NCBI GenBank assembly: GCA_027492255.1
Contig: JAPUFB010000003.1
Span: 77,889 to 141,888 of the forward strand
Direction: 5' to 3'
Source of the DNA: Candidatus Saccharimonadota bacterium
Lineage (GTDB): Bacteria; Patescibacteriota; Saccharimonadia; Saccharimonadales; Saccharimonadaceae
DNA length: 64,000 nucleotides
In this document: positions 5,123 through 43,078 of the stretch, piece after piece
How the letters are laid out: every line of letters begins with the position of its first letter
How positions within the stretch are numbered: the stretch's first letter is position 1
Translations under genes and position numbers: made by a program
Notes under the pieces: generated by a model
What the model was told of the DNA's origin: nothing
What the model saw: only the letters and a program-made list of their open reading frames with translations
Database searches by the model: none

Positions 5123-6513
5123 TCGATCGGAGCGATACTTTCCGCCCATAATTGTAGTTCCTCGAGAACAAACGTATCGGCGGTAGTGTGACTTAATTTT
5201 ACGAGCATATCCATATAGACTGGCAATTGGGCACGAAGTTTTCGAGAGCGATAATTCTCCCAGGCAACGCGCTCATCATCACTGAGGCTTCCGCTGTACC
5301 AACGACCCTTATAGCGAAGGAGTAGTTCGCTGAGACGCTCATCAGCGAAATCGGGATGAAAGTCAGCTAACTGTTCCGGATTAGCATTCCTCACTGCCGC
5401 CATCCGCGGCTTATCCTTGTCGTTCAGGAATCCATCATAGAGTTGCGCCTCAGGATCTGTTTGCGGCTCATATGGTTCTCGCATCTCAAATGCAGTACGT
5501 ACCGCATCGCCAAATGCCGGATTTGATAGGAGCAGCTTGAGATGACGGGCAATGAGCTCTTTTTCAAGATGAAGGCGCTCACGGTCCTCGTCCCTTAGTA
5601 CGCTCTCCGGTGCTACCGCTGGACAACGATTGAGGCTTATCTCTTTCACGGGCAAGCGCGGAGCATCCTGTGTTTTTTTCGAGAACATCACTTCCGCTAA
5701 CGCCTGAGGAGTAGCTTGAAGAAATGGCGTCGGATCTTCGCGCAGATCATAAACAAGCACCGACCCTGGCTTTGTCCCAGGCGCAATCGGAAATGCAAGC
5801 GTCGTTTTCTCATACTTCACGTCATATCTTCCGCTACAGTACACAAACGGCCGTGGGTCATCGAGTGAAACGAGTGCTGCCACTTTTTTCTTATCGCGGA
5901 TACCGAGAAGGTACTCAAACATCTTCGGCTGCTTGTCGCGGACTAATTTTGCAACTTGAATTAATGCTTCAACATCACTAAGTGCATCATGCGCCTTTGT
6001 ATGCAATAACTCATTTTCCTTTGCAATTGGTTCGAGTTTATTAACCGCCTTTCCTTCACTGTCAAATGGCCATCGTATCCCATCAGGACGCAGTGCGCGT
6101 ACCATTCGAACAACATCGAGAAGATCCCAGCGGCTTCTTCCCTCACTCCAGCTCCACTCGTACGGATCATAAAAATTACGCCAAAAGGTATGCCGTATAA
6201 ACTCATCATCAAACCGCACATTATTAAATCCAACAATTGTCGTATCAGGCGTGAAAATTTCTTCCTGAATATACCGACAGAACTCCGGCTCATTGAGACC
6301 ATCCGTTAGCGTCGCCTGAGGGGTAATGCCCGTCACCATAATCGCTGCAGGATCAGGAAGCGTATCATCACTCATCTTTACGAGCAGATTAATTGGCTCA
6401 CTAATCGTCTCAAGATTCATATCTGTACGAATCCCAGCAAACTGCATAATACGGCCAAACCGCGAATTTAAACTGCTTGTTTCAAGATCATAAAAGAAAA
6501 ATGTCTGGGCCAT
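5119..6513 (-). CDS. sbcB: Exodeoxyribonuclease I (DnaQ-like 3'-5' exonuclease)
   Basis: 464 aa, close to the E. coli enzyme (about 475 aa). Exonuclease I degrades single-stranded DNA 3' to 5' and acts in mismatch repair and recombination. The DEDDh exonuclease residues are visible: FFFYDLETSS (residues 4-13), NNVRFDDEFIRH (about 95-106) and HDALSDVEALIQ (about 165-176). The C-terminal half matches the SH3-like and helical extension of ExoI, including ALPVKEISLNRCP-type sequence. I chose ATG 6513 because the longer open frame upstream is GC-rich shadow sequence from the neighbouring peptide gene and lacks the family N-terminus. A TATGCT hexamer 6 nt upstream suggests a leaderless message. Confidence 0.93.
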   Translation of the reverse strand: MAQTFFFYDLETSSLNSRFGRIMQFAGIRTDMNLETISEPINLLVKMSDDTLPDPAAIMVTGITPQATLTDGLNEPEFCRYIQEEIFTPDTTIVGFNNVRFDDEFIRHTFWRNFYDPYEWSWSEGRSRWDLLDVVRMVRALRPDGIRWPFDSEGKAVNKLEPIAKENELLHTKAHDALSDVEALIQVAKLVRDKQPKMFEYLLGIRDKKKVAALVSLDDPRPFVYCSGRYDVKYEKTTLAFPIAPGTKPGSVLVYDLREDPTPFLQATPQALAEVMFSKKTQDAPRLPVKEISLNRCPAVAPESVLRDEDRERLHLEKELIARHLKLLLSNPAFGDAVRTAFEMREPYEPQTDPEAQLYDGFLNDKDKPRMAAVRNANPEQLADFHPDFADERLSELLLRYKGRWYSGSLSDDERVAWENYRSRKLRAQLPVYMDMLVKLSHTTADTFVLEELQLWAESIAPIE

Positions 6514-6540
6514 ATAGTTAGCATAGCATATATACCTTGT

Positions 6541-6596
6541 CCAAAATAAAACAGTGGTTAGGGCGCTCTTGGAAGACCAAGAACACCCTAACCACT
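6541..6596 (-). terminator. Long-stem terminator of the Cys-rich peptide gene
   Basis: On the minus strand an 11-bp stem (AGTGGTTAGGG / CCCTAACCACT), a small internal loop and a further 6-bp stem (TCTTGG / CCAAGA) with a 4-nt loop, then GTTTTATTTT. It lies 24 nt after the stop codon of the 6620-6826 gene. It is far longer than the other terminators in the window. Confidence 0.9.
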
Positions 6597-6619
6597 CATG
6601 ACCCTGGAGTGCTACTTGT

Positions 6620-6826
6620 TCAGTAGGGGTAGCACTTCGTGATCGGCTGCCAGAAGTTCCACCAGGGCCGCGTCGTGACGCAGTAGGTGTCCGGCAGACA
6701 GACCCCGTTGCTGTAGCAGGTCCAGCCCGACGAGACGGGCGCGGCCTGGCTCGGAGCCGCCGGAACGACGACCATCGCGGCGGCAAGTACTGCTGCGGCG
6801 GCGAATCGTGCGAGACGCATCTTCAT
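6620..6826 (-). CDS. Small secreted Cys-rich peptide, unknown
   Basis: 68 aa. The start ATG 6826 is set by a strong AGGAGAGGA ribosome-binding site 8 nt upstream. Residues 1-28 form a textbook signal peptide: KMRLAR, then an Ala/Val-rich hydrophobic core, cleavage after PSQA. The mature part is about 40 residues with four Cys in the pattern C-x5-C-x5-C-x15-C and an aromatic patch TRPWWNFWQP, which suggests two disulfides. GC-rich codons (GCC, GCG, GTC, CTC) contrast with neighbouring sbcB. It has its own promoter and a very long terminator. Not recognised as any family. A secreted toxin, bacteriocin-like peptide or host-contact effector is possible but is inference only. Confidence 0.8.
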   Translation of the reverse strand: MKMRLARFAAAAVLAAAMVVVPAAPSQAAPVSSGWTCYSNGVCLPDTYCVTTRPWWNFWQPITKCYPY

Positions 6827-6884
6827 GAGAATTCCTCTCCTAGGCGCCAATCCTATGATTAGGATCAGTCGGTCTTGCTACGAT

Positions 6885-6913
6885 ACAATAACATTTATTG
6901 TTTTATTTGTCTA
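6885..6913 (-). promoter_or_regulatory. Sigma-70-type promoter of the Cys-rich peptide gene
   Basis: Minus-strand TAGACA (6908-6913), 17-nt spacer, TATTGT (6885-6890). The predicted leader is about 50 nt and contains a small ATCCTA/TAGGAT hairpin before the ribosome-binding site. It does not match the AGTATTGAC cassette of the next three units. Confidence 0.6.
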
Positions 6914-6934
6914 CAAACTCTTTATCAAGAATAC

Positions 6935-6955
6935 AAAAACACCCCTTTGAGGGTG
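6935..6955 (-). terminator. Terminator of the 305-nt RNA
   Basis: Minus-strand CACCC / GGGTG stem with a 6-nt loop followed by TTTTTG. The hairpin is nearly identical in length and sequence to the one ending the 1-kb RNA at 7310-7331. Confidence 0.85.
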
Positions 6956-7239
6956 CAGACTTTAAAAAGAAATATTTTGGCATACCAGAGTGGACGCGAG
7001 CCGAGGAGTCACTACCGGGCAGGGGGACATGATGTCACCCCTGCCCGGCGAATAGACGCGGCGGCCCGGAAAGACGGGGTGATTATGGCTCAGCCCGCAA
7101 AGCCTAGTATCGGATTGTGGCTCCGAAGGGGCCCCTTCCCGTTAGGGTCTCAATCGCTTCACTACGGAAGTCCTTCCCTGGTATGCCAATGTTCATATTT
7201 CGTCGTCGCTACCTTTTAGTGGTACGCGTCGAAATACTT
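6935..7239 (-). ncRNA. Candidate structured noncoding RNA, about 305 nt
   Basis: No convincing ORF on either strand, yet it has its own promoter (7246-7273) and terminator. A perfect 12-bp helix, 6977-6988 with 7178-7189 (core GGCATACCAG), closes a GC-rich domain. Before it lies a 5' hairpin at 7196-7236 (TATTTCG/CGAAATA and TACC/GGTA). Inside is a near-perfect 34-nt hairpin at 7015-7048 (stem CCGGGCAGGGG). I found no RNase P, tmRNA or SRP signature: no GAGGAAAGTCC block, no tRNA-like 3' end, no SRP tetraloop motif. The RNA family is unknown to me. The architecture (5' hairpin, closed multibranch domain, terminator) matches that of the larger RNA next door. Confidence 0.75.
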
Positions 7240-7245
7240 AATAAC

Positions 7246-7273
7246 ATTGTATCATAGATTATACATTATGTCA
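7246..7273 (-). promoter_or_regulatory. Promoter of the 305-nt RNA (shared cassette)
   Basis: Minus-strand TTGACA (7268-7273), 16-nt spacer, TACAAT (7246-7251) preceded by TATG. The -35 sits in AAGTATTGACA and the -10 in TATGaTACAATG, words shared with the promoters of the 1-kb RNA and of the 201-aa protein gene. Confidence 0.85.
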
Positions 7274-7290
7274 ATACTTTTTTATAATAT
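7268..7290 (-). repeat. Upstream promoter repeat, copy 1 (copy 2 at 8334-8356)
   Basis: A 23-bp AT-rich segment including the -35 box of the 305-nt RNA is repeated at 8334-8356, upstream of the 1-kb RNA, with one mismatch. A weaker version precedes the 201-aa protein gene at 9199-9220. It looks like a conserved UP-element plus -35 block. Confidence 0.8.
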
Positions 7291-7309
7291 TCTCCTTAGT
7301 GCGCTACAA

Positions 7310-7331
7310 CAAAAAACACCCATCTAGGGTG
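7310..7331 (-). terminator. Terminator of the 1-kb RNA
   Basis: Minus-strand CACCC / GGGTG stem, 6-nt loop, then six T. Same hairpin design as 6935-6955. Confidence 0.88.
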
Positions 7332-8304
7332 CGAACGTCATGATTATTCTTGACAGTCAGATAGAGAATTGAAGGTGAACCACGGGCCCGGGAGAAACTG
7401 AATGTCTCCCGGGCCCTTCATCATCAAAGTAAAGAACACAACACCTGTCATATCTGGATTCTCACCCAAGATGCACAGGTTACTCTATTCTTTTATTCTG
7501 AAGTTGTGGTGTTCGGTAAAGCGGTTGGTGTCGGACCGTCACTTGTTTCTCTTCCGTCTGTTGGTTGGAAGGTACTCTCTGCGGTCCCCTAGGGGGCGAA
7601 GTCTGCCCACGTGGGTGTGCTAGTTACCGTTATTTTTCGGAGTGTGGCGTTGACGCCTTAAGACTCCGAGGCAGTAACTGCTGAATCCCACCGTCCCAAT
7701 AGCACCGGTGCCCTTCTCAGGGCGCGCTGCTACGCTACGCTAGCGTAACAGCACCTAGGTGAAGCCCATGGGCTCCTTTTTCCGTAGGTGGTTGGCAGTT
7801 GATGCACAGTGCTTTTTCATCAAGGTGCAGGCTCAGAGGCCCCTGCGCAAACCTTGTCCTCGTCGTATTCGCGTCTCGCCGGTCGAAACCATGCGTGAGC
7901 CGAACGTGACTCTTGCTAGCTTTTGGCTGGGGCGTGCTAGCGCCCTATCTACAGATCTTCACGAATCTCCTTTCAGGAGCCGACTTTTGACGCCGTGAGT
8001 GGGTGGCAGTTTTTGTAAAAGCTACGGCGGATGCATGCACCCGTCCTTTCGCGTCACGGCTACTATTGTCTTTTACAACAAGTACTAGCCTGCGGATAAG
8101 CACCTACAGTGTTGGCGAGCGAGCTCTCGATGACGGTTAGTGACCGTCAGTGGCTCGCGCCCCTGCGCCAGTCGGTTGTTGCTGGCCTGAATAGGAAGAA
8201 GCTATTTCTTCTCATTCAGGCCAGAACAATCCCTGAAATCTCTATCTGACTTGTCAATGTATCGTTTGACTAGCGCGGCGAAAGCCAGTAGCAATCAAAC
8301 GCAT
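7310..8304 (-). ncRNA. Candidate giant structured noncoding RNA, about 1 kb
   Basis: A promoter with perfect spacing (8311-8339) and a terminator frame about 1,000 nt without a plausible ORF. An 18-bp helix closes nearly the whole molecule: 8239-8257 pairs with 7350-7367 with a single bulged base. Nested helices are easy to see: 8182-8192 with 8214-8224 (extended by 8176-8180/8225-8229 and 8195-8200/8206-8211); 8013-8021 with 8070-8078; 8115-8120 with 8153-8158 plus 8132-8137/8143-8148; 7622-7627 with 7674-7679 enclosing 7638-7643/7663-7668; and a 12-bp GC hairpin at 7384-7416. A CGTTTGA hairpin lies at the 5' end. Such size and complexity recall GOLLD, ROOL or OLE RNAs, but I cannot identify it with any of them. 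Strand is set by promoter and terminator. Confidence 0.82.
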
Positions 8305-8310
8305 GAAAGC

Positions 8311-8339
8311 ATTTTAGCATAGATTGGATTTATTGTCAA
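8311..8339 (-). promoter_or_regulatory. Promoter of the 1-kb RNA (shared cassette)
   Basis: Minus-strand TTGACA (8334-8339), exact 17-nt spacer, TAAAAT (8311-8316) preceded by TATG. Predicted start near 8304. Confidence 0.9.
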
Positions 8340-8377
8340 TACTTATTTATAATATTAATACTTTATCTGCTAGATAA

Positions 8378-8402
8378 CAAAAAAACACCTTTGCGCGGTG
8401 TT
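8378..8402 (-). terminator. Terminator of the 201-aa protein gene
   Basis: Minus-strand AACACC / GGTGTT stem, 7-nt loop, then a T run. It shares the CACC...GGTGTTTTT ending of the other accessory units. Confidence 0.87.
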
Positions 8403-8444
8403 GTCTTTTAAAGGGATAAACTGTAATAACTAGGGGTAAATCTT

Positions 8445-8479
8445 GGCGGGGAGAGATGAAAAAGATATCTCTCCCCGCC
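8445..8479 (-). other. GC-rich 3'-UTR hairpin ahead of the terminator
   Basis: A perfect 13-bp stem (GGCGGGGAGAGAT) with a 9-nt loop lies between the stop codon at 8499 and the terminator at 8402. No T run follows, so it is not itself a terminator. It could protect the 3' end or bind a protein. Confidence 0.8.
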
Positions 8480-8498
8480 GGTACACCATGTGCGAGCG

Positions 8499-9104
8499 CT
8501 AGCTCGCCTTGACCGTCTTACTGCGGGACGTCACCTTCTTGGGCGAAGGAGTGATCGCCGACGGAAGATCCGTGACCGTGGCAGCCTTGGCCTGGCTCGG
8601 ACCCGTGGGCTTGTCGCCCGGGACGATGCGCAGACGCGGAACCTTGACATCTCCCTGCTCAGCCGCGCGCTCCGCGAGGAGCCGCTGGCCGAAGAAGAAC
8701 CCGTCCTCGATCACGACACCGTGGTCGGCGGCGAGCCTCAGTCCGTTCTCGAACTTGTCGAGCACGAGGTTGCGCGTCGCGGGGTCGAGCTTCGGCAGGT
8801 CCTTGTCGGTCTTGCAGAGGAGGCCCTCTGCGAAGTCCTTGACGATGAGGATGAAGGTCGTGCTCCACTTCTTCTGGATCGCTGTCTTGGCGACGGCTCC
8901 GAGGAAGTTTTTGCCGAAGAATTTGAGATCATCGACGTGCTTCTGCGCGATGCGAGCGAGCCTTGCGGCCTCGCTGGCCTCGGCAGTGAGCTTGGCCTGC
9001 TCGGCCTCGGCGAGTCGCCTCTGCTCGGCGAGCGTGGCCTGCATGGCCTCGCGGGTCTGGGCCTCGGCGAACGCGGCGGCGAACGGATCGGTGGAAATGG
9101 TCAT
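8499..9104 (-). CDS. GC-rich coiled-coil protein, unknown
   Basis: 201 aa. ATG 9104 is chosen over an upstream alternative because GGAAGGAG sits 5-7 nt before it and a sigma-70 promoter lies at 9176-9204. Residues 10-50 are Ala/Glu/Gln/Arg-rich heptads (AEAQTREAMQATLAEQRR), predicted coiled coil. Residues 55-150 look globular (FFGKNFLGAVAKTAIQKKW, then LDPATRNLVLDKFENG). The C-terminal 45 residues are Pro/Ser/Thr/Lys-rich and end in a basic tail. There is no signal peptide or membrane segment. Codon use is strongly GC-biased compared with flanking genes, suggesting transfer or special expression. No family recognised. It belongs to the same transcription-unit class as the two RNAs beside it. 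Confidence 0.8.
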   Translation of the reverse strand: MTISTDPFAAAFAEAQTREAMQATLAEQRRLAEAEQAKLTAEASEAARLARIAQKHVDDLKFFGKNFLGAVAKTAIQKKWSTTFILIVKDFAEGLLCKTDKDLPKLDPATRNLVLDKFENGLRLAADHGVVIEDGFFFGQRLLAERAAEQGDVKVPRLRIVPGDKPTGPSQAKAATVTDLPSAITPSPKKVTSRSKTVKAS

Positions 9105-9175
9105 GATTGCTCCTTCCGAGCAAATTGCATGGATGTGGTGTACTGTACCGAGCACAGGGGCTCGATCACGGCAAC

Positions 9176-9204
9176 ATAATAACATAAGTATGATAAATAG
9201 TCAA
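9176..9204 (-). promoter_or_regulatory. Promoter of the 201-aa protein gene (shared cassette)
   Basis: Minus-strand TTGACT (9199-9204), 17-nt spacer, TATTAT (9176-9181) preceded by TATG. The words AGTATTGAC and TATGnTAnnATG match the two RNA promoters. The leader is about 65 nt and has a GAGC/GCTC hairpin before the ribosome-binding site. Confidence 0.85.
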
Positions 9205-9297
9205 TACTGATGTTTATATACTCACACATCAACCGTCCTCTATCTCCTATAAAAATACTATTTTACTTTTTTGTACACGTGTTCTATAATGTTTTAT

Positions 9298-9849
9298 ATG
9301 GAAACACGAACGACAATTGATATGGCGTTAAAGATAATTGGGAGCGAAGGACTCAGTGGGCTGGAATGCGAGGCCAGCACACTTCCTGGTCTCCTCCACC
9401 ATTTTGGGCTCGGAGATACTCTCACACCTGAGCGAATCGCAAAAGTCAGTGCCGAGTTACATCGCCAGCATCTCGTGAAGATTACAAAGAAAAAACATGG
9501 CATCAAAGTACAGCCGACCGTCAAGGCAATTCATCGCCTGCAAAAGTCAGTTATTAATGATATCCAGATTCGTCCCCTTGCCCAGTGGGATCGCACCTGG
9601 CGTATGGTTACCTACGATGTTCCGCGAGCCCAAAGTGCGCAGCGAATCGTATTTACCCGCCAGCTTGTTCGTCTTGGTTTTACGATGGTGCGAGAGAGTG
9701 TCTGGTTTCATCCGCAACCATGTTTTGAGGCGGTAGCAGAAATCGTACAGTACTGCGGACTACAGCGCCACGTCACCTATGCAGAGGTAGGACGCCTCGA
9801 CGGCAATACCGTTGAAAAACTGCGCCGCGCCTATCCTGAAATTGTCTAA
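9298..9849 (+). CDS. PaaX/Cas2-fold transcriptional regulator-like protein
   Basis: 183 aa from ATG 9298. The C-terminal half (WRMVTYDVPRAQ, then LVRLGFTMVRESVWFHPQ) has the hallmark pattern of the PaaX central domain, which shares the Cas2 ferredoxin fold. The N-terminal 70 residues look like a winged-helix DNA-binding unit (Thr-Ile-Asp-Met helix, then HLVKITKKKHGIKV). No cas genes or repeats are nearby, so a CRISPR role is unlikely. TATAAT at 9285-9290 lies 7 nt before this ATG, giving a leaderless start and favouring it over ATG 9289. It is transcribed away from the accessory island and could regulate it, but this is only positional inference. Confidence 0.72.
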   Translation: METRTTIDMALKIIGSEGLSGLECEASTLPGLLHHFGLGDTLTPERIAKVSAELHRQHLVKITKKKHGIKVQPTVKAIHRLQKSVINDIQIRPLAQWDRTWRMVTYDVPRAQSAQRIVFTRQLVRLGFTMVRESVWFHPQPCFEAVAEIVQYCGLQRHVTYAEVGRLDGNTVEKLRRAYPEIV

Positions 9850-41713: not shown

Positions 41714-41741
41714 TTAGATCCTTATGCTTGCAATGTATGAT
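41714..41741 (+). promoter_or_regulatory. Promoter of the plus-strand 250-nt RNA
   Basis: TTAGAT (41714-41719), 16-nt spacer, TATGAT (41736-41741). Moderate match; start predicted at about 41747. Confidence 0.5.
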
Positions 41742-41743
41742 AC

Positions 41744-41998
41744 GGGGTGCTAGTATTCTTTTACGATTCTGGGAGCCCTTGGTGCACCAAGGGGCAGAAA
41801 AGGGATAGAGCCTTCACGGTCTTGAACTGAGTCCAGTTTAATAGCTAAAGGCTCCGATATTTGCCTTAGCGTAGGGGTGGACGATGATGTGCGACTGGAT
41901 GTCGCATTATCGCAAATCGTCCACCCCGCTCTAATTTCTTTATGTCGGATAGCTTATTAATACCCCGTCACCGCTTTATGCGTGACGGATCATTTTTT
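41744..41998 (+). ncRNA. Candidate structured noncoding RNA, about 250 nt
   Basis: No ORF. Hairpins in order: a GCCCCTTG-type stem around 41774-41796; GAGCCTT (from 41808) pairing with AAGGCTC (to about 41854); and a long compound hairpin at 41874-41927 (GGGGTGGACGAT/ATCGTCCACCCC enclosing TGCGAC/GTCGCA). A terminator hairpin CCGTCAC/GTGACGG (41965-41988) is followed by ATTTTTTATT. The GGGGT near 41744 can pair with ACCCC at 41962-41966. No RNase P, tmRNA or SRP signature seen. It could be a 6S-like or novel RNA; identity is unknown. Confidence 0.6.
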
Positions 41999-42052
41999 AT
42001 TGACCGAAAACTAAGAAATACTTATTGAGCCCTAGGATCAAATAATATATTT

Positions 42053-42122
42053 TGGTGATCCCGCGGAGAAGGCGGTCGCTTCGCTCCCTATTTCCGCTCG
42101 CTTTGCTCGCTACACGAACTCC
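42053..42122 (-). repeat. Broken tRNA-Glu 3' copy with 44-bp insert in the T-loop
   Basis: The last 18 nt of tRNA-Glu, including CCA, are repeated at 42053-42070. The matching T-stem strand (CGAACTCC) is at 42115-42122. Between them, in place of one T-loop base, sits a 44-bp insert (42071-42114) built from GAGCGAAGC-type words. The same insert, 42 of 44 identical, lies in a tRNA-Gly 3' copy at 63095-63138. The copy continues into two short hairpins (CGAACTCC/GGAGTTCG, GACTTG/CAAGTC) instead of tRNA sequence. Confidence 0.85.
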
Positions 42123-42154: not shown

Positions 42155-42200
42155 CCAAAGAAAAAAGTCCAAGCTTTAGAGCCTGAACTTTTTTCTTTGG
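42155..42200 (-). terminator. tRNA-Glu terminator that includes the CCA end
   Basis: 14-bp stem CCAAAGAAAAAAGT/ACTTTTTTCTTTGG; its first three bases are the tRNA CCA. Confidence 0.88.
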
Positions 42201-42272
42201 TGATCCCGCGGAGAATCGAACTCCGGTTGCCAGGATGAAAACCTGGTGTCCTAACCGTTAGACGACGGGACC
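42198..42272 (-). tRNA. tRNA-Glu (UUC)
   Basis: Full cloverleaf on the minus strand: acceptor GGTCCCG/CGGGATC, D-arm, anticodon stem CCAGG/CCTGG with loop TTTTCAT (anticodon TTC), T-arm GGAG-TTCGATT-CTCC, encoded CCA. It is read from a promoter at 42347-42375 through a leader of about 70 nt. U34 is a predicted MnmA target. Confidence 0.96.
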
Positions 42273-42464: not shown

Positions 42465-42584
42465 TCAGTGCCGACTTCGGCGTCGGCTCCCCTTGCCATG
42501 TTCCTTCGGGGTGTTCGCCCTCTTGCGACGAGCTTCCTTGATCTCAGCCGCCCTCTGGGCGCCCGACTTGTGGCTGTCACTCAT
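42465..42584 (-). CDS. Basic 39-aa microprotein, unknown
   Basis: 39 aa: starts MSDSHKSGAQRAAEIKEARR and ends GKGSRRRSRH. About one third Lys/Arg, no hydrophobic core, probably nucleic-acid or ribosome binding (inference). Its ATG (42582-42584) overlaps the TGA of the 165-aa gene by 4 nt, the usual sign of coupled translation. Codons are as GC-rich as the upstream gene. The stop is followed by a GC hairpin and terminator, so the pair forms a compact dicistron. Not recognised. Confidence 0.65.
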   Translation of the reverse strand: MSDSHKSGAQRAAEIKEARRKRANTPKEHGKGSRRRSRH

Positions 42585-43078
42585 GCGACACACACCTGAC
42601 CAATCGTGGCCATGCTGCCAGAGCCAGTACCAGCAGCAGTCTCATGCAACTCCTCGTCCAAAGCTCCGAAGCGGATCGTTTCGAGATGCTTCGGCTTCTC
42701 GCCGGTCACCCAAGCATCGGTTGTGATAACCGGCTTGTCGTTCGATCTGCTCTTGATCTTGGCCTCTGCCTTCTTGCGAGCCTTTCCCCAAAACTTCTCA
42801 CTCGCGTGGCATGCCTGAACTTCGGGCCACATCCGTCCGCTCACACGTCCTGTCGTGAAGTCAGTGCTGATGTACTTGAGCTTCACTCCCTTCTTGAGCA
42901 GATCGACGGCAACTCCCGCGACCGGCCACTGGTAGGCGCGGCACATCTCCAGCAGCTCTTGCTGTTCGCCGCTTGAGTTATGCGGGTCCATCGCGATCAT
43001 GTTGATCAGATCCTCACGACGCTGACGAGGATCGGCATCGTTCTGAGGGGCTGCCGTTGGGATAACGAACTGAGTCAC
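42581..43078 (-). CDS. GC-rich accessory protein, unknown
   Basis: 165 aa from GTG 43078 with GGAAGG about 8 nt upstream. Soluble; no signal peptide. The N-terminal part has a helical Arg/Glu-rich region (DPRQRREDLINMIAMD; SGEQQELLEMCRAY). Then comes a Lys-rich middle (FWGKARKKAEAKIKSRS) and an acidic, Gly/Ser-rich tail. GC-biased codons differ from the neighbouring umuC and membrane genes. It has its own promoter with operator-like dyads and is coupled to a 39-aa basic protein. No family recognised. Confidence 0.75.
   Translation of the reverse strand: MTQFVIPTAAPQNDADPRQRREDLINMIAMDPHNSSGEQQELLEMCRAYQWPVAGVAVDLLKKGVKLKYISTDFTTGRVSGRMWPEVQACHASEKFWGKARKKAEAKIKSRSNDKPVITTDAWVTGEKPKHLETIRFGALDEELHETAAGTGSGSMATIGQVCVA

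Follow-up and report, generated by a model that had tools for sequence, protein, structure and literature searches.

Large structured RNAs of bacteria are few, and OLE RNA is a long, stable one with an architecture of its own that is conserved. ROOL and GOLLD, as summarized in PMC12286853, are large noncoding RNAs of bacteria and phages with an elaborate structure and a function that is unknown. Rfam records no large structured RNA for the locus upstream of sbcB, and the sole Rfam structured RNA in the Saccharibacterial neighbourhoods analysed here was lysM-TM7 RNA (RF03005), which is cis-regulatory, lies at other positions in the loci and does not overlap the units described below. Saccharibacteria are tiny bacteria living on other bacteria, and the host-interaction factors of such host-dependent bacteria are little known. 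Here we analysed a 64-kb stretch of a Saccharibacterial genome (64,000 nt, hereafter the window) and found a 305-nt element that looks like one of a group of previously unlisted, fast-changing, end-sealed RNAs beside the DNA-repair gene sbcB; the open-licence PMC literature, at the level of abstracts, yielded nothing on such RNAs in Saccharibacteria.

A preliminary description had drawn the element at 6935-7239 as a plus-strand RNA with promoter, terminator and structure. All three were confirmed, and the folding exceeds chance, but the signals lie on the minus strand, and the scan for promoters and terminators indicated that the folded RNA gene is read from this strand. The intrinsic terminators around the element are all on the minus strand (6956-6939 for the element itself, 7332-7316 for a neighbouring RNA of about 1 kb, 8402-8384 and 6596-6553 for the small protein genes p228 and p76), and so are the strong extended -10 promoters (7274-7246, 8339-8311, 9204-9176 and 6913-6885, in the same order). 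The element thus has its own promoter, as had been said, on the other strand: TTGACA-17-TACAAT with a TG extension at 7246-7274. The usual promoter of this genome has the form TTGACA-17-TGnTAYAAT, which matched 86 times, whereas its reversed pattern matched 14 times.

With the start inferred at 7 nt past the -10 box and the end set at the U-tract, the predicted RNA covers 6932-7239 (minus), based on promoter, terminator, folding and the layout finder described below. Its 5' hairpin, an AUUUCG...CGAAAU rod at 7196-7236, had been taken for the terminator hairpin. The closing helix follows, with its 5' strand TTGGCATACCAGGG at 7176-7189, beginning inside ACATTGGCA, and its 3' strand CTCTGGTATGCCAA at 6977-6990. 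This helix was present as described, but its length was not the perfect 12 bp noted: it has 14 pairs, 13 Watson-Crick and one G-U, and joins both ends of a compact domain. The 34-nt GC hairpin was borne out at 7048-7015, toward the 3' side of the closed domain. The intrinsic terminator, GCACCCTCAAAGGGGTGT-TTTTG, occupies 6932-6956, and its hairpin (6956-6939) is what had been read as the 5' hairpin. The distance from the -10 box to the closing helix is 56 nt, that from the helix end to the terminator 21 nt, and the helix score is 15.5. No credible ORF was found in the 305-nt RNA (best GC3 log10P -0.5).

The element is the third of four consecutive one-gene minus-strand units, namely a 201-aa ORF, the ~1-kb RNA, the 305-nt RNA and a 68-aa ORF. 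The island is bounded by a PaaX-like gene (9271-9849, plus; Pfam PaaX_M, 3.4e-18), which is the island flank in this genus, and by the exonuclease I gene sbcB (6513-5119, minus; Pfam Exonuc_X-T_C, 4e-61). The 201-aa ORF p228 (8499-9104, minus, counted from ATG) has a GC3 of 0.87, and the 68-aa ORF p76 (6620-6826, minus, also from ATG) has a signal-peptide-like N-terminus, a TGA stop and a GC3 of about 0.85. Neither had a Pfam or NCBIfam match. G102, which belongs to another genus, encodes a 38%-identical homologue of p228 just before sbcB; blastp found no similarity between p228 and the 204-aa cargo ORF of G024, the phage and plasmid searches gave at most matches to the AT-rich promoter, and the viral-contig search gave none.

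The ~1-kb RNA (7310-8304, minus) was matched by the finder and has syntenic homologues at L055 and L056. Its closing helix pairs 8251-8239 with 7367-7355, and it contains no credible ORF (best GC3 log10P -1.2). The preliminary description had given the two RNAs the same architecture, and this held: they share layout and strand, and the finder matches both. The near-identity claimed for their terminator hairpins holds between the actual terminators (GCACCCTCAAAGGGGTGTTTTTG vs GCACCCTAGATGGGTGTTTTTTG) and between the promoters (80% identity across 46 bp), but not between the other two hairpins. Given this promoter identity, the 305-nt unit probably consists of duplicated ends of the 1-kb unit around a different, shorter core.

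The minimum free energy of the interval 6935-7239 was well below that of shuffled sequences on both strands (plus, z = -4.9; minus, z = -6.8). For the closed core, z was -9.7 sense (minus) and -5.1 antisense (20 shuffles), and in the set of sbcB-upstream units described below the sense core folded lower than the antisense core in 19 of 24. We then ran, on both strands, a finder that accepts a unit only if it has a promoter, a terminator and a helix that connects its two ends. Over the whole window it gave exactly two matches, the 305-nt RNA and the 1-kb RNA, both minus, while two control sequences for the window gave one and none. About 380 kb more of the same genome gave three marginal matches with scores of 12.8-13.8 (controls 0), one of which overlaps a tRNA (L184).

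Three other features of the window were seen along the way. A candidate structured RNA at 41736-42010 (plus) has a -10-like TATGAT, a helix ACGGGGT../..ACCCCGT, a long GC hairpin at 41872-41932 and a plus-strand terminator near 41967-42000; it has no Rfam match and holds ATGTCGGATAG, a sequence shared with the closing strand of a congener RNA. Downstream of a 165-aa gene at 42581-43078 (minus, GC3 0.67) come a long GC hairpin and a terminator on the minus strand, an arrangement that in style resembles the protein units on the sbcB side; the gene belongs to no NCBIfam or PHROGs family. The 3' part of tRNA-Glu (TTTGGTGATCCCGCGGAGA) is repeated about 140 bp apart, at 42056-42075 and 42195-42214, as at an integration site.

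Among 151 genomes of the taxonomic family, sbcB was found in 148; up to 4 kb upstream of it was collected from 80 of these and added to the window and two congeners to give 83 stretches. With the strict finder, 20 of the 83 had units oriented like sbcB (22 units, from 13 genera by handle), against 2 with units in the opposite orientation; a looser setting gave 32 vs 9. Because the settings had been chosen on this set, a held-out set of 40 stretches, which leaves out some genomes near contig ends, was scanned with the unchanged strict finder, and 6 of 40 had units on the sbcB strand and none on the opposite strand. Two of these positives (G094 and G108) are without the motif described below and may be false. 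Of all 123 stretches, 26 had sbcB-strand units by the strict finder and 2 had units facing the other way. Two fragments, one in G171 and one in G185, resemble further members and are not in these counts.

The units occupy an intergenic spot that many genomes leave empty. In 91 of the 123 stretches obgE is encoded on the same strand as sbcB; in 28 of these the gap is shorter than 190 bp and all 28 are unit-negative, while the 22 unit-positive stretches with obgE have a gap of at least 448 bp. Tandem units, two or more, were detected by the finder in G098 and by eye in G100 and G150, and in many genomes the terminator of the last unit ends about 20 nt before sbcB. As a separate observation, sbcB seems leaderless in many loci (e.g., L096, L099 and L081), with a -10-like TTATGCT box about 6 nt before the ATG and directly 3' of the RNA terminator.

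Lengths of the 28 units range from 211 to 995, and the helix begins 36-59 nt past the -10 box in 26 of them. Their closing helices differ in sequence, yet are paired, and the 99% pairing is partly by construction, because units were chosen for good helices. A motif recurs on the 5' strand, ACAUUGACAAGUUGGAUA; the motif ACATTGACAAGTTGGATA reached at least 11/18 in 16 of the 28 units vs 1.3 expected in shuffles, and the held-out G105 has it at 17/18. Of 27 leaders, 8 have a hairpin with an asymmetric UUG/C loop by a strict definition, where 0.14 would be expected from shuffles. These shared end elements are short, and the leader hairpins were aligned poorly by MAFFT. Between related units (G039/G047 and G090/G142) only the two ends align well and the middle cannot be aligned, and across genera the cores are unalignable. 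Outside the locus, the motif pattern matched at about the control rate, and among 25 matches a promoter and closing helix accompanied it only at sbcB; the two other matches with good helices were inside protein-coding sequence and were rejected.

The 305-nt RNA shares the intergenic location before sbcB and the orientation of that gene. It has an extended -10 promoter and an intrinsic terminator of its own, and its helix falls within the limits set for the units: at least 12 bp, a start 36-59 nt past the -10 box and an end no more than about 30 nt from the terminator. From this location, strand, promoter, helix position, terminator and folding, we consider it quite likely that by layout it belongs to the sealed-end units upstream of sbcB. 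It is the smallest of the strict units at the locus, one doubtful unit aside. With respect to the motif, it keeps ACATTGrCA alone, and its best score is 10/18, out of register; 12 of the 28 units, this one among them, score below 11/18. Its leader has a hairpin without the UUG/C loop; since that loop in strict form occurs in 8 of 27 leaders only, members need not have it. Also absent is the long first internal hairpin, and the GC hairpin stands about 25 nt off the closing strand, not adjacent to it.

Gene order (sbcB, PaaX-like gene, obgE) is conserved in the two congeners. In both, the same gap (870 and 680 bp) contains a single large RNA that is oriented like sbcB. The ends of these RNAs match those of the 1-kb RNA, with CATTGACA(A/T)(A/G)TC(A/G)GATAGA paired with TCTATC(C/T)GA.., and among the three species several pairs of the closing helix change on both sides, e.g., G-C / A-U / G-C. 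Pairing was no selection criterion here, since the homologues were located by synteny. Neither congener has a counterpart of the 305-nt RNA in the gap or, by blastn, elsewhere in its genome, so the "paired system" of the preliminary description found no support. Across genera the spot holds 0, 1, 2 or more units, so the window's two RNAs represent one configuration of an array that varies and are not an obligatory pair.

No homologue of the 305-nt core was found in anything searched, and phage-collection and plasmid searches with the RNA cores gave AT-rich promoter matches at most. Several matches were inspected and set aside: those of blastn in ten other genomes of the family covered the promoter part (9) or the leader (1) at unrelated genes and were judged by eye not to be homologues, and two from the viral-contig scan were judged to be chance.

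Our leading reading, which we hold with moderate confidence from sequence data, is that the 305-nt element is an independently transcribed, ORF-less, functional noncoding structured RNA encoded on the minus strand of a modular accessory locus. In such an RNA the sealed ends (5' hairpin, closing helix and terminator hairpin) would shield the transcript from exonucleases and so let it accumulate, and the leader hairpin and the ACAUUGACA.. strand could be the parts that a common partner recognises. The core may then be exchangeable cargo that works as RNA, as a scaffold or decoy, or that carries a mini-ORF in other species.

An unlikely but real rival is that the unit has decayed, either from a duplicate of the 1-kb unit or from a former ORF cassette, and that it has lost its cargo and is drifting, with a transcript that is perhaps still made and idle. 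It is a real rival because ACATTGrCA alone is kept, neither the first long hairpin nor the UUG/C loop is present and no orthologue was found. The small size, the absence from both congeners and the promoter identity with the neighbour would all fit such a relic. The 14-pair helix with its 13 Watson-Crick pairs, the core z of -9.7 and the intact promoter and terminator, however, would be unexpected after long drift.

Some relatives of the 305-nt RNA do carry an ORF. When units were screened for an ORF of 28-204 codons in the middle, with a Shine-Dalgarno sequence and a GC3 of at least 0.85, 11 of 40 had one in sense and 2 of 40 in antisense, and the stop was TGA in 11/11; the 40 units include 16 stretches added by eye. 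A test on GC3 only was weaker (13 sense vs 7 antisense of 40). In the last 1.8 kb before sbcB of the 123 genomes, such an ORF was found in 14 genomes on the sbcB strand (13 TGA stops and 1 TAG) and in 2 on the opposite strand. Two species of one genus, G017 and G121 (L105 and L110), have homologous 43-aa high-GC3 ORFs, MHGPTKQAQRTRGSTTTG.. and MHAPKQAHRTRGSTTTG.., and this is a conserved cargo peptide. p76 and p228 are of the same high-GC3 kind (0.84-0.87), whereas native genes of the window genome have a mean GC3 of 0.43 (n=376) and stop with TAA in 190 cases, TAG in 109 and TGA in 67. We also saw, in another genus, a GC-rich ORF unit with a similar AT-rich promoter and 3' GC hairpin style (L007, G183:C22).

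These ORFs raise the second rival, that the 305-nt unit is a structured mRNA whose short peptide was missed, as in the ORF-bearing relatives. The strand bias and the TGA stops of the mini-ORFs speak for it, both in the 40 units and in the 123 stretches, but no high-GC3 ORF of this type was found in the 305-nt RNA, the 1-kb RNA or the RNAs of the two congeners, and we regard it as rather improbable. A third rival, that the RNA is a cis-acting leader or attenuator of the downstream p76 or sbcB, could draw on the strand shared with sbcB and on the many last terminators close to that gene. We judge it very unlikely: every unit is self-terminated, and obgE stands directly beside sbcB, without an RNA, in many relatives. 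For the 305-nt RNA in particular, its own terminator and the p76 unit in between, which has a promoter and terminator of its own, mean that it is not the sbcB leader. The plus-strand RNA of the preliminary description is hardly credible: its fold also beats shuffles, as any strong inverted repeat would, but it folds more weakly than the minus strand, has no upstream promoter and no U-tract past 7239, behind the hairpin once taken for its terminator, and nearly all relatives with this layout lie on the sbcB strand. A diverged housekeeping RNA, for which the size range and nothing else speaks, has a negligible chance, because RNase P, tmRNA and 6S, the classes singled out in the preliminary description, and SRP had no Rfam match in the window at gathering scores or in 6500-9300 at E<=5, and the related units gave one tmRNA alignment of 14.3 bits (cut-off 47) and no other housekeeping match.

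For the locus as a whole, a far more speculative idea, which we think has little chance of being right, is that the obgE-sbcB units are nuclease-proof, sealed-end transcripts for use outside their own translation regime, e.g., delivered to the actinobacterial host. In this view some units carry mini-ORFs and genes for secreted proteins, and the ORF-less ones, among them the 305-nt and 1-kb RNAs, would act as RNA effectors or decoys. High GC3 and TGA stops are typical of actinobacteria, and the cargo ORFs have a GC3 of 0.85-1.0 vs the genome mean of 0.43 and TGA in 13/14 vs 67/366 native stops. The signal-peptide-like products, the extreme folding and the hypervariable cores would also be compatible with delivery. 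A plainer reading would be that host genes were taken up, or that selection favoured very stable mRNAs. Genes with GC3 of 0.78-0.86 also occur elsewhere in the genome (L182 14563-14910, minus; L186 6181-7044, plus; L188 5766-6401, plus), so the sbcB locus is not alone in its high GC3; two of these genes resemble, by eye, membrane or type IV secretion proteins.

Returning to the noncoding, minus-strand reading of the 305-nt RNA, the locus shows an unusual kind of RNA evolution, in which ends and location persist while the core changes almost wholly between related genera and can be noncoding or else a tiny ORF whose codon usage looks foreign. The family is directly testable, because some Saccharibacteria are in culture. 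Among known classes, the 305-nt element had no Rfam match in the window at gathering scores and is a structured RNA outside the Rfam classes; ROOL, GOLLD and OLE had no match at gathering scores in the window or in 20 related loci. OLE and the 305-nt RNA are both structured, but OLE comes from a different taxon and shows no Rfam match here, and to our knowledge its neighbour genes differ from those of the sbcB-upstream units. Nearest in kind to these units, as far as the summary in PMC12286853 describes them, are ROOL and GOLLD, which are likewise large, noncoding and elaborately structured. They differ in sequence and setting: the sbcB units are chromosomal, between obgE and sbcB, and their conserved parts are unlike those given for ROOL and GOLLD in that source, since the ends are conserved around a core that is unalignable even between related genera.
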